Shown here piece by piece: positions 33,450-42,076 of a stretch of 51,705 nt of DNA (its first letter is position 1; each line of letters begins with the position of its first letter). The translations under genes and the position numbers were made by a program. Below the pieces are notes generated by a model that ran no database searches, was not told where the DNA came from, and worked only from the letters and a program-made list of their open reading frames with translations. This stretch comes from Chitinivibrionales bacterium (GTDB lineage: Bacteria > Fibrobacterota > Chitinivibrionia > Chitinivibrionales > FEN-1185), in the NCBI GenBank assembly GCA_035516255.1, contig DATJAL010000034.1, positions 1-51,705 of the forward strand. Reading direction: 5' to 3'.

Positions 33450-34610
33450 TTAACGCAGAAGCCTGATCACCTTAAGCAGCAACAAGGGGCGTTTTGAAAA
33501 GGCTTTTATGAAAATGGAAAGGATGTCCATTTTCCCGTCCGGATCTTTTGTGATCGACCGGGCGACATCATCAAGAAAATCATCTTTGAAGGTCACCATG
33601 ACCTCCTTAAGCGAAAACGAGCGCAACTGCTGCTTGCCGTAAAAAGAGGCCCATTGCTTTTGATAGGTTTTGAGGCGTTCGTATTTGCAGGCGCCGCCGA
33701 TAAAAGACTGCGCGGCAACGGTTCCCGCCGCCTTGCCAGAAAAAAGGGCGTAGCCGATGCCGGCGCCGCTCACGCAATTCATCATGCGCGCTGCGTCGCC
33801 GACAAGCATGACGCCGTTTCTTACCAGAGGTTTCTTCCATTTTCCCATGGGAACGCCGGCGCAGTGCAGGTCGGAGACGGCGGCGCCCGGAAATCTTTCA
33901 TTGATGAATTTTAAAAGCAATTCACGCGGCATTCCGCCTTTACACCTTGACCCCAAAACGCCCAGGCCCACATTCGCCGTGTTCCCGCCCCGGTGGAACA
34001 CCCACACATACCCGCCCGGCGCGTGCGAACTTCCCAGATAGAAAACGCAGGCTTCGGGTTCAATGTCGTTATGGGCAACCCTTGCAAAGGCGCATGAATG
34101 AACGTCGCCGAGCGAAAGATTGGTTGACCATCCGAGGGAACGGCCGAGCCGGGATTCAATTCCCTCTGCGAGAATCACGCATTGCGCGGAAAACGAACCG
34201 GCGCTGCCCTTGCATTCATATCCGCCATTAATCTGCGCGATTGACAGAATGGACGTGCCGGGAAAGAATTCCGCGCCCGCCGCCACGGCATCGGCCGTCA
34301 TGTCCGTTTCCATTTTCTCCCTGTCAACAACATACCCCTCGTAGCTGTTGGGGACCGTCACGCTTATACCGCAGGGCGAAACGAGTTTCATGTATTTGAT
34401 TGCGCTTTTTATCCATCCCGGTTTGAGGCTGACGCTCTGCGTGAATCCTTTGAGGCCTATGGCCTCGCCGCAGCGCACGGGATACCCGGGGATTTTCTTT
34501 CTGTCAATAAGGCACACTTTTCTTCCGCCCTGCGCGGCATGCAGGGCGGCGACGATCCCGGCCGGCCCCCCGCCGATGACCGCGATCTCGAATTTGCGCG
34601 GAATGCTCAT
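33450..34610 (-). CDS. geranylgeranyl-reductase-family flavoprotein
   Basis: 386 residues. FAD-dependent reductase of the GGR superfamily (digeranylgeranylglycerophospholipid reductase, chlorophyll or menaquinone side-chain reductases, and related). Seen: FAD motif VIGGGPAG (11-18), the second conserved element GYPVRCGEAIG containing the family Cys C47, the substrate region GGYVWVFHRGG and MLVGDAARMMN..SGAGIGYAL. The ATG at 34610 overlaps the ferredoxin stop (ATGA), with GGAAG 5 bases before. Reduction by ferredoxin is the known mode of archaeal GGR, matching its neighbour. In this operon the substrate might be a prenyl chain attached by UbiA. Confidence 0.88.
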   Translation of the reverse strand: MSIPRKFEIAVIGGGPAGIVAALHAAQGGRKVCLIDRKKIPGYPVRCGEAIGLKGFTQSVSLKPGWIKSAIKYMKLVSPCGISVTVPNSYEGYVVDREKMETDMTADAVAAGAEFFPGTSILSIAQINGGYECKGSAGSFSAQCVILAEGIESRLGRSLGWSTNLSLGDVHSCAFARVAHNDIEPEACVFYLGSSHAPGGYVWVFHRGGNTANVGLGVLGSRCKGGMPRELLLKFINERFPGAAVSDLHCAGVPMGKWKKPLVRNGVMLVGDAARMMNCVSGAGIGYALFSGKAAGTVAAQSFIGGACKYERLKTYQKQWASFYGKQQLRSFSLKEVMVTFKDDFLDDVARSITKDPDGKMDILSIFIKAFSKRPLLLLKVIRLLR

Positions 34611-34834
34611 CGGTGCTTCCTTTGCGCATCGGAAGTGGTCTTGTCGGAAGCAATTTGAAGGGACAACGCTCCCACCGGGCAGACCGCAACACAGTTGCCG
34701 CACGCAACGCACCTCGCTCGGTCAACGGCAATGCTTTTGTCAAGCATGATGGCGTCAACCGGACACACGCCGATGCAGGTGGCGCATTCATCACATTTTT
34801 CCAGATTCACTTCAATCATGACGGTGCCAAACAT
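34607..34834 (-). CDS. 2[4Fe-4S] ferredoxin
   Basis: 75 residues with two complete CxxCxxCxxxCP clusters: C14, C17, C20, C24 and C42, C45, C48, C52. Low-potential electron carrier. The gene starts with TAATG coupling to the upstream helical-repeat gene and ends with ATGA coupling to the GGR-like gene, strongly implying that it feeds electrons to the reductase. A second in-frame ATG at 34819 is a possible alternative start closer to the conserved IEVNLEKC. A basic Lys/Arg-rich tail follows the second cluster. Confidence 0.93.
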   Translation of the reverse strand: MFGTVMIEVNLEKCDECATCIGVCPVDAIMLDKSIAVDRARCVACGNCVAVCPVGALSLQIASDKTTSDAQRKHR

Positions 34835-35889
34835 TAACGGGGGCTGCGCATTTGTGCCAGCAGTTTTTCCGCATCACTGCGGGCCTTTTTACAAAGGCCA
34901 TCGCATTGTTCCATTTTCCGGGAAAGGATTTTCTCGCAGGCGTTTCTTGCCTGCACCGTGTCGCCCGCGGTAAAATACATGAGCGCCGCGCTGACGCGCG
35001 TCGCCAACGCGTTCCTCCTGGCGCAGTGTATTCCATCATACGCATCGGCGAGTTTCGTATAATAGCCAGCCGCCTCGGCGAATGACCGGGTGGCCTCACC
35101 GCGTTTCGCGCACGTCCACCAGGTGAGCCGGCTTTCCGGATGTTCCGCCAAAAGGCCCTTGGTGATTGCATCGGATTCGAAAATATAGTTCTCACGGTAA
35201 TACAATTCCGCGAGAAGCAGCGTTGCCGCCAAACCGACAAACTGCGCGTTTCTGCTGCACGTTTTAATGCTTTTAATGCCGTCCATTTTTTCACCCGAAT
35301 ACCAGAAAAATGCCCACCAGAAATTCTTCTTGAGGTCGGCCCGCGCATAGGTATAAAATCCGAGGATAAAATCCACGTCTGTATTTGTATGGTCGAGCCG
35401 TTTGGCTTCCTTCAATGCCGACAGGGCCGAGAACCCCACATCGAGTCCGGTGAAATATTTTTTTCTCCATAAAAAGTATGCCGCGGCGATGGCTTTTGAA
35501 AAGCCGTTGATGGTATAGCTGAACGAAGAAACGCCGAATTTTTTCTCAAAATTAAATATCGAAGCTTCCGTCTTTTTGTATCCCTCAGAAAAATTCAACG
35601 AATCCGTGGCGCTGTCTAGGTCCAGGTCGTGCAGGCCGACCGCTGAAAGGCGCAGCATCGGCCACAGCGGATTTTCCGGATCGGTTTTGGTCACTGAATC
35701 GCAAAACAGGATCGCGCCGTTGTAATCACTGGCGATCATTTTCTCTATTGCCAAGGAAGCCGCCTGCCTGACCGCAGGGGGAAGTGAAAGACCGGCACAG
35801 GGGACGCAGCCCCAGCCAAAGAAAAGCAAAATCAGCCCTGCGTGCTTTTTATTTATGAGCCGCGGGGACAAGTGAAGGATACCAGACAT
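34834..35889 (-). CDS. exported helical-repeat (TPR-like) protein, function unknown
   Basis: 351 residues. N-terminal hydrophobic segment (about 15-33, KKHAGLILLFFGWGCVPCAG) looks like a signal peptide with a cysteine that could fit a lipoprotein site. The remainder is all-helical with TPR-like pairs (AIEKMIASDYNGAILFCDSV, ALKEAKRLDHTNTDVDFILGFY, LLAELYYREN). No catalytic motif seen. Its start lies 41 bases inside the UbiA gene and its stop overlaps the ferredoxin start, so it is fully embedded in the prenyl-lipid operon. A role in assembling or transporting the product is possible but unproven. Confidence 0.78.
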   Translation of the reverse strand: MSGILHLSPRLINKKHAGLILLFFGWGCVPCAGLSLPPAVRQAASLAIEKMIASDYNGAILFCDSVTKTDPENPLWPMLRLSAVGLHDLDLDSATDSLNFSEGYKKTEASIFNFEKKFGVSSFSYTINGFSKAIAAAYFLWRKKYFTGLDVGFSALSALKEAKRLDHTNTDVDFILGFYTYARADLKKNFWWAFFWYSGEKMDGIKSIKTCSRNAQFVGLAATLLLAELYYRENYIFESDAITKGLLAEHPESRLTWWTCAKRGEATRSFAEAAGYYTKLADAYDGIHCARRNALATRVSAALMYFTAGDTVQARNACEKILSRKMEQCDGLCKKARSDAEKLLAQMRSPR

Positions 35890-36811
35890 GAAACCTCAAT
35901 CTGAAATATGCTATGGTGGCGACAAGCGACAAAAGGGCTCCGGCAACCAGATAGGGAAAAACCACGGCGGCAATGAGCATCATAATCAATCCGCCGATTT
36001 TGTACGTTGCTTCCATCAGGCCCGCGGTTTTACGGACAAGATAGGCTCCATAGAGCGGAACGGCGCACAGTGAGCACGTGAGCGCCACCCAATCATTAAG
36101 CAGAAGCGAGACCGTGAGTCCCGCGGCGATAAACATCGAGGCAAGAACATGTGCTTTGCGGAGCCCGATGGTCACGGCGGTGGTATTTTTCCCGTACGCT
36201 CGGTCTCCGTCGATGTCCGGGAGCGTCGAGCTGATGGAACCGGCGCACATCAGGAGAAAATACGGTGATGATGAGATGAAAAAAGCCGGGCCCGGTGCGG
36301 CCCCGGACAAAAGCCAGCCGACACCGAACGCGATGAAGCCATAGCCTGCGGCGTTGGTAATAAAATCCAGACCGGCACGTCCGGAGAAATAGAACGGTTT
36401 GACACAGTAGAGAAAACCTACCGCAAGCGCCGCTGCCGAAAAGAGAGATACTGCGGGGTATGCGGCAAGGGGAATCAGCACCGCCGCGGCGGCGAGGAGG
36501 AACGCCGTTACCCCCGCGAGCGGCAACGGAATATTCCCTTTTGCCAACATTGGAAAACCGGCATTCACGGCATCGACGTGCCGGTCGGCGATTTGGTTCA
36601 CCGCATACACCGCGCCCACCGAGCAAGAGAAGACCAGCATCCAGGCGGCGGTGGAAAATGGTGTTTTCCAGGCGGCTGAAAGATGGAAGCCGTGCACGTC
36701 GGAGAGGCCCGCAACATATCCGAAGGCGCAGTATCCCCAGACTGGAATCAACAAAAGCGGCCGGGCAAGAAATACGGCGTCGGCAACCCGGCATAAAAAG
36801 GATGGCTTCAT
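35849..36811 (-). CDS. UbiA-superfamily prenyltransferase
   Basis: 320 residues, about eight to nine membrane helices. Intramembrane transferase joining a prenyl diphosphate to an acceptor. Seen: the first Asp motif NQIADRHVD (N72, D76, D80; NxxxDxxxD) and the second DIDGD (D199, D203; DxxxD), which bind Mg-pyrophosphate. The family includes quinone (UbiA/MenA), chlorophyll, heme O and archaeal digeranylgeranylglyceryl phosphate synthases. The acceptor cannot be read from the sequence. Neighbouring ferredoxin and GGR genes suggest that the attached chain is then saturated. Confidence 0.9.
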   Translation of the reverse strand: MKPSFLCRVADAVFLARPLLLIPVWGYCAFGYVAGLSDVHGFHLSAAWKTPFSTAAWMLVFSCSVGAVYAVNQIADRHVDAVNAGFPMLAKGNIPLPLAGVTAFLLAAAAVLIPLAAYPAVSLFSAAALAVGFLYCVKPFYFSGRAGLDFITNAAGYGFIAFGVGWLLSGAAPGPAFFISSSPYFLLMCAGSISSTLPDIDGDRAYGKNTTAVTIGLRKAHVLASMFIAAGLTVSLLLNDWVALTCSLCAVPLYGAYLVRKTAGLMEATYKIGGLIMMLIAAVVFPYLVAGALLSLVATIAYFRLRFHVWYPSLVPAAHK

Positions 36812-36856: not shown

Positions 36857-37942
36857 TTAGAGTGGATACGGTCCGACGGGAAAAGGGTTCGAATAGATCC
36901 AGGCATGTTTTCCTTTATAAACTTCTATCCTGAAAACTCTACGCGAAGAAATTGGAAATTCAACCTGCCATCCTTTTCTTTTGTCAATATACTCGCCGTT
37001 GGCGACCAGTTTCACCAGCGCGGGTTCCGGCAGATTTACCTTGAGCATTGCCGGCAGGCAAATATCGGCGGTGGGACTGCCAGGCATCACGGCATGTCCG
37101 TTTTTATCCACGAGATAGATTTCGGCGCCTCTGGCATCTCCCCTTCTGTAATTGCTGATAAAACCTCTCCCGTTTTTTAGAGCGTCAAGGAGCATCGCCT
37201 TTGCAGCTGCAGCATCGCCTTTCGGTAAAGGACGGCTGAAATACAGATGCGTCCGTATTCCTTTCAGCTCCACTTTAATCGGAAAAATGGTAAAAAGGAA
37301 AATGCCGAGCCGAACTTTCATGGAATGGGCATCCACGCCGCCGATGCCGCTCACGAACCGGTTGCGGTTCAAGGCGTCCCAGCGTCCGAGAAGTTCCCGA
37401 GGCGCCTCAAGGAGAAAACGGCGCGGATAGAACAAACGGAAGAAATGAAGCCAGCTCCTCAGGTTTTCGAGCCAATCCGACATCTGGTTCCACAGCTCGA
37501 TGCCGTCAAAACCGGTTGCGTTCCATTCAATCCAGGGATAAGGAGGATATTTTTTAAAATAGTGGCGCTTCTCGATTGGATGGGCAATGAACCCTATTCC
37601 TCCCGTTTCTTTGATTTTGTTGATGTATCCCTGCGCATCATTCGTGTAAGTGACCACTGAATTGCTGCCAAGAGCCAGATAATGGTTGATGTTCGCGGCA
37701 TCGTTGTGTTCATACCCCACGCAGACGAACAGATCATCTGAAAAGCCTTCAAACCCGGCATCCCTTCCCTTGAGCGAAACATGGTCTGTTACGACGATGT
37801 AATTGAGGCCGACCGCCTTGGCGGTTTCTATCATGACGGGAAAATCCACGCCACCGTCCGAGAATTTTGTATGCAGATGGATTGCGCCGCATAACTCCAG
37901 GAATGTGAATTCTTTTCCGTTACTTGTTCTTTCTGCCGCCAT
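36857..37942 (-). CDS. PHP-domain metal-dependent phosphoesterase
   Basis: 361 residues from the ATG at 37942. PHP fold with complete ligand pattern: IHLHT (H22, H24), VTDH (D53, H54), GYEHN (E78, H79), NHYLAL (H87), FIAHPIEK and GGVDAHSMK. A C-terminal beta domain of about 120 residues follows. Function unknown; related proteins act on phosphate esters or DNA. A GTG at 38002 in frame would add 20 residues but has no ribosome site; neither has the ATG, so the start is uncertain. It lies 45 bases before ubiA-like and may lead that operon. Divergent from rpsT. Confidence 0.85.
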   Translation of the reverse strand: MAAERTSNGKEFTFLELCGAIHLHTKFSDGGVDFPVMIETAKAVGLNYIVVTDHVSLKGRDAGFEGFSDDLFVCVGYEHNDAANINHYLALGSNSVVTYTNDAQGYINKIKETGGIGFIAHPIEKRHYFKKYPPYPWIEWNATGFDGIELWNQMSDWLENLRSWLHFFRLFYPRRFLLEAPRELLGRWDALNRNRFVSGIGGVDAHSMKVRLGIFLFTIFPIKVELKGIRTHLYFSRPLPKGDAAAAKAMLLDALKNGRGFISNYRRGDARGAEIYLVDKNGHAVMPGSPTADICLPAMLKVNLPEPALVKLVANGEYIDKRKGWQVEFPISSRRVFRIEVYKGKHAWIYSNPFPVGPYPL

Positions 37943-38110
37943 AGTTCGTTTACAAGGAGAAATTGATAGGTGTTTTCCGTGACTACCGTTGAACCAGGAC
38001 ACTCGGTATTATTGCATTTGGTTTTTAAAATACCTTTAATACTGTAGAAGTGGGTACCCATAATTTATTTGATATCCTGCTGCGCCGGCAAAAAGAGCCC
38101 ATTGCAGTAT

Positions 38111-39934: not shown

Positions 39935-42076
39935 ATGAACATAAGTCGCAACAATAGAGATTCCCACTTAGCACACACTATGCCCGTTATGGTGCTGGGA
40001 TTTATATGTTCTTTGGCGCTTGGTTCGGCTGCTCAGCCCATTTTCTGGGAATCGGAGATAGCCCTTGCGCTGGAGTCGCGAGATATCATGTATCTGCAGG
40101 CAGGCATACGGTCCACCGAGTTTTCCAAAATGGAGCCGGGCTACCATAGTCCTGCGGTGCCACTTTCGCCTGACACCACAACACCGTGGCCTTACTTTCT
40201 CAAGGGTTTGTCAAACTCAGGAGACGTGCACGATGATGCGGACGCCGTCTCGTATTTCACCAAGGCCATTGCCTCCGCCGAAAAATACCCGGGCCGTATG
40301 TGGGTCCTTTCCGTGGAGTTTGAAAGGTGCGGCCTCCGGGATTGGCAGGAAAAATGCATTAAAAAATTGGAACAGATCTTTCTTGCCAGCGGCGCACAGG
40401 CCGCACCCGTCATTACCCAGCAGTTACTTTACAAAGCCGTAAAAATGTCCGGCAAGGGTCTGGGTGAAACCGGGGAATTGTACAATTCATGGGCTTCCTG
40501 GTTCGACAAGGACGACATCCTGATCCACCTTCAGGCCGTCCAATCTGCCGGCGTCCTTTCCTTGACAAAGGTATTGCCCCGGCTTCAGGACATCGTCGAC
40601 GATATCTCGTCATCCTGGAAAATCCAGCTCGGGCTCGTCAAAAACATCTGCGCATGGTTCTTTACCTTTCTTTTCATTGCCATGGCGGGCATTCTGCTCG
40701 GCCTGGGCCCGAAATATTTTTCCTGGGCGCTCCATCTTCCTTCAGAACGCCTTCCCGATGTTTTTGCGCCCAAGGCGAAATTATTCCTGGCTCTTCTTGT
40801 TTTCGCTTCAATCGCTTTTTTAGGCCAGCTTGCCTTTATTTGGTGTTTCTTTTTCATCATTTGGCGTTTTTGTGATAGCAAGGATAAGCCCCTCGCGATG
40901 ATTGCGCTCGTGCTTTTTCTTCTGTTTCCCCTCAGCGTTAAATTGGGAGACATGTTCGATCAGGTGCTTTCTCCCGGCGGATCGGTGATGTTGTACAAGA
41001 AAGCCCTTGACGAAGGATATTATCACCAACTTGACTCATGCATTCGCGCGCGAACAATCAGCAACAACGCTGACTATCTTATTCATACTGCATCGGCGCT
41101 TTATTCCCTAAAAAAAGGCGACCCGTCCGCAGCGGCTCCCCATCTTCAGATCGCGCAACGGCTGTTTCGCAACAATCCCGCGGTGCTGGTGGCAACCGGG
41201 AATACCCTGTTTTACGGCGGCGACCTCGCCGGAGCACGCGGCGCCTACCAGGAATGCATCTCGCTTTATCCGTCATATGAGCCCGCATTTTTCAACCTGG
41301 GGCAATATTATTTCAACACCATGGAAACCGCAAAAGGCATGGAATATATCACCCAGGCAACGAAACTCAATCCGGGCTATGTCAACGCGTTCATCAAGAA
41401 AAACGATGAATGTTTTTCAAAGGATTGGCCTCCTCTGCGGCAGCTTATGGCACCGGATTTTTCCCCGATGTACTTCTGGAGCAACATTTTTCCCGAATAT
41501 TGCGGGACGTGGAACACCGCCAGCCAACGTTTCGGTGGCATGTTTTTCGGCTTTTCCCTTCCGCTCTACGGTCTTCTGTCACTCGGGCTGCTGGCCATTC
41601 TCCTAATGATGGATTCCCTGGTGTGGTCGAAAGCGGTGGTGAAAAAAGTGACCGCCTGCAAACTCTGCCAGTCCATTGTCTGCCGGAAATGCAAACGCGG
41701 TGTCATATGCAAGACCTGTTTCAACGCGACCCAGCAGATCCGCAACGAACAAATCAGGCAGCGCATCATGTCCAAAATCCAGTCCCGAACGGTGCGTTTT
41801 CGAACTTTTACGGCGATTTTTCTCAACATGTTTTTTCCCGGTTCTGGCCTAGTCTACCGCGGTGCACCCCTCTATCAGTCGCTGTCGCTTGTCGCAACCA
41901 CCTCCATCATCTATGCGACGTATATTGCCCTGTTCCGCGCAACGTTCAATTTTCCTACATGGACCGTACAAGGACTTATAGCGCAGGCATATCTGGTTCT
42001 TGCTGTTTACAACATATTCTTCTTTGGCCAGGGCCTTGTGAAGGGATTTAGAGAACTAACAAAACGGGGTGAATGA
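39935..42076 (+). CDS. TPR membrane protein with cysteine zinc-ribbon-like motif
   Basis: 713 residues, no known family. N-terminal signal/anchor segment (about 16-33). An extracytoplasmic helical region (40-235) with TPR-like pairs, then two or three membrane helices (about 240-262, 283-308, 318-335). A second soluble TPR-like region (350-495: ALYSLKKGDPSAAAPHLQIAQ, LAGARGAYQECISLYP). A membrane helix (540-560), then CKLC, CRKC and CKTC pairs (about 575-595), a likely metal-binding ribbon in the cytoplasm, and further C-terminal membrane helices. Starts: ATG 39935; M16 would put the signal peptide at the very N-terminus. The stop lies one base before the PATAN gene start, so they are coupled. 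Confidence 0.75.
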   Translation: MNISRNNRDSHLAHTMPVMVLGFICSLALGSAAQPIFWESEIALALESRDIMYLQAGIRSTEFSKMEPGYHSPAVPLSPDTTTPWPYFLKGLSNSGDVHDDADAVSYFTKAIASAEKYPGRMWVLSVEFERCGLRDWQEKCIKKLEQIFLASGAQAAPVITQQLLYKAVKMSGKGLGETGELYNSWASWFDKDDILIHLQAVQSAGVLSLTKVLPRLQDIVDDISSSWKIQLGLVKNICAWFFTFLFIAMAGILLGLGPKYFSWALHLPSERLPDVFAPKAKLFLALLVFASIAFLGQLAFIWCFFFIIWRFCDSKDKPLAMIALVLFLLFPLSVKLGDMFDQVLSPGGSVMLYKKALDEGYYHQLDSCIRARTISNNADYLIHTASALYSLKKGDPSAAAPHLQIAQRLFRNNPAVLVATGNTLFYGGDLAGARGAYQECISLYPSYEPAFFNLGQYYFNTMETAKGMEYITQATKLNPGYVNAFIKKNDECFSKDWPPLRQLMAPDFSPMYFWSNIFPEYCGTWNTASQRFGGMFFGFSLPLYGLLSLGLLAILLMMDSLVWSKAVVKKVTACKLCQSIVCRKCKRGVICKTCFNATQQIRNEQIRQRIMSKIQSRTVRFRTFTAIFLNMFFPGSGLVYRGAPLYQSLSLVATTSIIYATYIALFRATFNFPTWTVQGLIAQAYLVLAVYNIFFFGQGLVKGFRELTKRGE

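Follow-up and report, generated by a model that had tools for sequence, protein, structure and literature searches.

Introduction

In euryarchaea, a ferredoxin gene beside the gene for geranylgeranyl reductase (GGR) is largely conserved, and the ferredoxin of Methanosarcina acetivorans raises GGR activity in Escherichia coli (PMC9385802, PMC8941075). Among bacteria of the Fibrobacteres–Chlorobi–Bacteroidetes (FCB) group, the genes for glycerol-1-phosphate (G1P) dehydrogenase, geranylgeranylglyceryl phosphate (GGGP) synthase (GGGPS) and digeranylgeranylglyceryl phosphate (DGGGP) synthase (DGGGPS) occur together in Chitinispirillum and Chitinivibrio (Coleman 2019, PMC6431249), and GGGPS and DGGGPS of Cloacimonetes produce unsaturated archaeol lipids in E. 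coli (Villanueva 2020, PMC7852524). Because of these two studies, the archaeal-lipid potential of the group considered here is not new; an initial annotation had also noted that FCB-group bacteria have been reported to carry archaeal-type lipid genes. Here we analyse an operon in a stretch of 51,705 nucleotides (the window) from a Chitinivibrionales bacterium of the phylum Fibrobacterota (GenBank assembly GCA_035516255.1, contig DATJAL010000034.1), which corresponds to contig C34 in a genome of 4.28 Mb (96.6% complete). The operon comprises, in this order and all on the minus strand, genes for a CehA-like PHP hydrolase, a UbiA-type prenyltransferase, an exported tetratricopeptide repeat (TPR) protein, a 2[4Fe-4S] ferredoxin and a GGR. 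We consider it moderately probable that this is a two-module prenyl-lipid operon, in which a first module saturates archaeal-type lipid tails and a second carries out a separate prenyl transfer.

The ferredoxin–GGR pair resembles MA_1485/MA_1484 of M. acetivorans, where a small 4Fe-4S ferredoxin gene likewise adjoins a GGR with the Cys, PxxYxWxF and LxGD motifs, and among reductase types the window GGR comes closest to the euryarchaeal lipid reductases. It differs in being bacterial and in its company: a tetraether synthase homologue lies alongside the archaeal pair (PMC8941075), whereas the window pair shares its operon with genes for a PHP hydrolase, a UbiA and a TPR protein that is exported. 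With the archaeal-lipid gene sets of FCB bacteria, the genome shares the presence of GGGPS, DGGGPS and GGR in one bacterium and, as in Cloacimonetes, no recognised G1P dehydrogenase. In contrast to those sets, the genes for GGGPS and DGGGPS lie apart in this genome, and GGR is linked to a UbiA judged not to be a DGGGPS, which we did not find described in the literature consulted. A UbiA prenyltransferase alongside a GGR-family reductase also recalls ChlG/ChlP and BchG/BchP; however, the match to ChlG reaches 35.9 bits against a curated cut-off of 313, the window GGR fits the archaeal model better than that for BchP, and no link of the window operon to tetrapyrrole genes was seen.

Results

The GGR (33450..34610, minus strand) passes the cut-offs of TIGR02032 (180.9 bits; cut-off 158.8) and PF22578 (GGR_cat; 73.5 bits, cut-off 27, E 1.3e-20). 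Its best specific model is the Thermoplasmatales lipid reductase with 157.8 bits, compared with 62 for MenJ and 101 for BchP/ChlP, and its top match in the PDB is 3oz2, the GGR of Thermoplasma acidophilum (E 1.2e-45), which bears out the earlier description of this flavoprotein as GGR-like. All motifs of the family (GxGxxG, the catalytic Cys, PxxYxWxFP, LxGD and RxxxD) are present, the first four reading GGGPAG, PVRCGE, PGGYVWVF(H) and LVGD in the window; the final P of PxxYxWxFP is replaced by H in the window and in L002, and RxxxD, kept in most relatives, reads RxxxE in the window. The catalytic Cys and the PGGYxWxF motif are invariant in 12 orthologues, and the GDA motif is invariant as well. 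Judged from models and motifs, the protein truly belongs to the GGR family and falls in its archaeal-lipid-reductase branch. The 420-amino-acid frame given for it in the initial annotation proved over-extended: in an alignment with 11 orthologues the longer frame lacks a counterpart in most of them, so we set the start to the ATG at 34610, giving 386 amino acids.

The ferredoxin (34607..34834, minus strand, 75 amino acids) has two CxxCxxCxxxCP motifs and matches Fer4 at 1e-14. Relatives were compared within Fibrobacterota (151 genomes of the phylum, 40 of them from the window's order), and across that order the ferredoxin adjoins GGR. The coupling of the two that had been proposed fits the euryarchaeal ferredoxin–GGR gene arrangement, and from its position the ferredoxin is likely the electron donor of GGR. 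The pair also occurs in two genomes outside the order, G002 and G005, and is therefore older than the operon; one GGR copy of G002 is sister to the operon GGRs (tree support 100).

Gene content, order and conservation of the operon can be read directly from the sequence. The four co-oriented genes with overlapping ends that were described initially lie on the minus strand as described: the UbiA gene (35849..36811, 320 amino acids, here termed U2) and the TPR gene (34834..35889, 351 amino acids) overlap by 41 bases, TAATG at 34832–34836 is common to the TPR and ferredoxin genes, and ATGA at 34607–34610 to the ferredoxin and GGR genes. A fifth, co-oriented gene upstream, encoding the CehA-like protein (36857..38002, 381 amino acids), had been omitted; it is separated from the UbiA gene by 45 bases, and the operon thus starts one gene earlier. 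The usual order in relatives is CehA-U1-U2-TPR-Fd-GGR (Fd, ferredoxin), with two tandem UbiA genes, U1 and U2, and with the CehA-like gene ahead of U1/U2 in many genomes. This linkage is more than chance, the same order being found in about 30 related genomes; a limited literature search returned no description of such an operon. The window, its nearest relative G008 (from the same genus), G028 and G056 carry U2 without U1 in the operon, and none of the seven UbiA genes in the window genome is U1, which we read as a loss of U1 in the window's genus.

Within the order, the operon-type GGR is present in 39/40 genomes, GGGPS in 35/40, DGGGPS in 34/40 and an orthologue of the TPR protein in about 30/40. 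At the operon locus, the gene set is reduced to CehA-Fd-GGR in G030, G062 and G078 and to Fd-GGR in G050 and G034. These five genomes keep DGGGPS and lack U1-U2-TPR beside the retained Fd-GGR, which argues that U1-U2-TPR is a separable block and that the operon consists of two modules. U1-U2-TPR-Fd also occurs without GGR beside it, in G006 and G016. Since Fd-GGR and U1-U2-TPR thus occur apart, the GGR would not depend on the operon UbiA.

The operon UbiA passes the PF01040 cut-off (65 bits, cut-off 34.2; E 8.4e-18), and its motifs NQxxDxxxD and PDxxGD are invariant in 12 orthologues. As a single sequence it matched no UbiA structure in the PDB, including 6m31 (phmmer); its profile matched 6m31 at 2.6e-07. 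An AlphaFold2 model (mean predicted local distance difference test, pLDDT, 85.4) has the UbiA fold, and the nearest Foldseek matches, headed by 4tq4 and 4od4, are all UbiA structures. The invariance of both remaining Asp motifs and the modelled fold suggest that U2 is likely an enzyme. U1 and U2 are mutual closest relatives, scoring 113.9–169.6 bits against each other's profile compared with at most 38 bits for the other UbiAs tested, and in a UbiA tree they form one separate clade (support 99.9/100). The initial annotation had called for placing this UbiA among DGGGPS and MenA/UbiA enzymes; with the small reference set used, the tree resolves no more than the monophyly of U1 and U2 and shows no supported grouping with MenA. 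The second motif of U1, YNLPPxxLKN, is closer to chlorophyll synthase than to DGGGPS, and the U1 profile matches the chlorophyll synthase 9sau and DGGGPS about equally. Plasmid searches found no relatives of U1 or U2. By their sequences, the two represent a new pair of UbiA enzymes.

A candidate for DGGGPS lies on another contig (C45:65451-66293). Against PRK12884 it scores 169 bits, and against a model named for GGGP geranylgeranyltransferase 146 bits, both below the strict cut-offs. It matches DGGGPS of Methanocaldococcus jannaschii (MjDGGGPS) at E 8.6e-25 and, in the plasmid search, shares up to 38% identity with proteins of haloarchaea that bear the annotation GGGP geranylgeranyltransferase. 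Of the residues probed in MjDGGGPS (N62, D66, D70, Y125, K130, D180, D183 and D187; PMC9385802), the C45 candidate has 8/8. The operon UbiA has 6/8, with K130 replaced by S and D180 by T, and scores 31–35 bits against DGGGPS-type models; an equivalent of D180 is absent from both U1 and U2, as it is from E. coli UbiA and MenA. GGGPS, which the initial annotation had asked to be sought, is encoded on a third contig (L001 on C36) and exceeds the curated cut-offs (PRK04169, 294.6 bits, cut-off 247; TIGR01769, 227.8 bits, cut-off 161.6). The search for a geranylgeranyl diphosphate (GGPP) synthase, suggested at the same time, returned one trans-prenyl synthase of the short-chain type, for which the farnesyl diphosphate (FPP) model scores slightly better than the GGPP model.

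The exported TPR protein alone matches nothing in Pfam; its orthologues show weak TPR matches and all share a signal-like hydrophobic N-terminus, a hydrophobic helix in the window protein. Its AlphaFold2 model (pLDDT 86.8) is all-helical, with generic TPR superhelices as Foldseek matches. Paralogues occur in the phylum outside the operon. Outside the order, one lies near lspA/rluD-type genes and DGGGPS (G002:C68 and G005:C681; L039 and L040), and a link of the TPR protein to DGGGPS, considered because of these two genomes, was rejected as a neighbourhood effect of the housekeeping lspA-rluD cluster. The CehA-like protein falls below the cut-offs of NF038032 (64.3 bits, cut-off 80; E 1.2e-17) and Pfam PHP (4e-05); its sequence places it as a relative of the CehA/McbA metallohydrolases, classed only as CehA-like, the family cut-off not being reached.

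Downstream of the operon, L065, L074 and other relatives often carry genes that read as HDOD-type, CheX-like and CheY-like signalling proteins, in place of which a transketolase gene follows GGR in the window. A gene of about 296 codons after GGR in many relatives was considered as a prenyl synthase and discarded, as its N-terminus reads as HDOD-type and response-regulator-like genes come next. On the plus strand of the window, divergent from the operon, 39935-42076 encodes a 713-amino-acid membrane protein with TPR repeats that is kept beside the operon in several relatives. Elsewhere in the genome, a 589-amino-acid frame (L113:7011-8777; G000:C2, near 248-250 kb) fuses IspH, the 4-hydroxy-3-methylbut-2-enyl diphosphate reductase, to a C-terminal UbiA-like membrane domain that keeps DLRDIEGD and lacks the usual first Asp motif. 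Six minus-strand genes (L112:271-10229; G000:C16) encode HMG-CoA reductase, a DUF3419 protein, a 462-amino-acid protein without a Pfam match, an AMP-ligase, a UbiA-like protein and a protein like pyruvate phosphate dikinase, and look like a second isoprenoid-lipid cluster. A cytochrome oxidase cluster (L111:7335-13405; G000:C51) includes a UbiA like heme O synthase and a rubredoxin-domain protein, and another, divergent UbiA is encoded there on the other strand.

Discussion

Based on gene neighbourhood and homology, we propose the following scheme for a two-module operon. In the first module, the FAD of GGR would receive electrons from the ferredoxin, and GGR would hydrogenate geranylgeranyl chains; most likely, its substrate would be the archaeal-type diether lipid made by the GGGPS on C36 and the DGGGPS on C45. 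In the second, UbiA, usually as two tandem enzymes, and the exported TPR protein would serve a prenyl transfer distinct from the DGGGPS step: the two Asp motifs of UbiA would hold a prenyl diphosphate through Mg2+, and the prenyl group would be moved to an acceptor. For the CehA-like hydrolase, the substrate may be a phosphorylated intermediate; the TPR protein is probably a periplasmic partner or scaffold. Electron flow, lipid substrate, UbiA activity and these last two roles are what we infer from the sequence data.

Several observations weigh against this scheme. A second GGR in the same genome, on contig C44, has no adjoining ferredoxin and could instead be the ether-lipid reductase, and membership of the GGR family alone leaves the substrate unfixed, as the family also acts on chlorophyll, quinone and dolichol tails. 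With 142/151 genomes carrying it, GGGPS is phylum-wide, and its distribution therefore does not follow that of the operon. We recognised no G1P dehydrogenase in the genome, where the two PF13685 matches are AroB and an iron alcohol dehydrogenase. The supply of C20 chains is also uncertain, because the sole trans-prenyl synthase scores slightly higher as an FPP than as a GGPP synthase.

The strongest competitor, possible though doubtful, is that the whole operon encodes a single pathway, complete in itself, to a distinct lipid: the UbiAs would prenylate an aromatic, sugar or other head group, ferredoxin and GGR would saturate the tail, the CehA-like enzyme would trim a phosphate and the TPR protein would move or dock the product in the periplasm. 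The tight, overlapping and recurrent linkage from CehA to GGR, the sister relationship of U1 and U2 with their invariant Asp motifs, and the chlorophyll-synthase-like second motif of U1 all fit such a pathway. The two modules separate, however: in several members of the order, as well as in G002 and G005 outside it, Fd-GGR has no UbiA-UbiA-TPR beside it, and U1-U2-TPR-Fd stands without adjoining GGR in G006 and G016. We regard as unlikely a further reading, in which U1/U2-TPR-Fd-GGR makes a new saturated prenyl lipid that might stand in for menaquinone, be it as redox carrier or as membrane lipid, in an order where no menaquinone pathway is recognisable.

Still less probable is the making or saturation of a respiratory quinone, with a MenA-like UbiA and a MenJ-like GGR. 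Both families include these enzymes, U1 and U2 share with E. coli UbiA and MenA the missing D180 equivalent, and the window genome, although it lacks MqnA/D, encodes a cytochrome c oxidase cluster and so presumably needs a quinone. Nevertheless, MqnA/D were detected in 0/40 genomes of the order, compared with 107/111 of the rest of the phylum; nothing in the window genome exceeded the MenD cut-off, the matches looking by eye like acetolactate-synthase-type thiamine diphosphate enzymes; and no menaquinone head-group pathway was found there. The order thus seems, from its gene content, to lack futalosine menaquinone synthesis, and the pattern of the operon and the Mqn genes may go back to one difference between lineages, with no functional connection behind it. 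The single prenyl synthase of short-chain type, the 62 bits of GGR to the MenJ model and the lack of a supported grouping of U1/U2 with MenA point the same way, and the reduced-menaquinone role raised in the initial annotation is disfavoured. That the operon UbiA is itself the DGGGP synthase, and the operon the archaeal ether-lipid pathway, is highly improbable and already contradicted by sequence: despite the GGGPS gene and the weak DGGGPS similarity of this UbiA (31–35 bits; 2.6e-07 to 6m31), the C45 paralogue is by far the better candidate (169/146 bits, 8.6e-25, 8/8 residues), and in the operon UbiA, which falls in a separate clade (99.9/100), D180 is replaced by T and K130 by S.

One bacterial order combines both ether-bond enzymes with a conserved, archaea-style ferredoxin–GGR unit for what would be tail saturation, which bears on the question of mixed archaeal/bacterial membranes in living bacteria. 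Chitinispirillum and Chitinivibrio are cultured genera. As they carry three of the archaeal genes (PMC6431249), the question is directly accessible.

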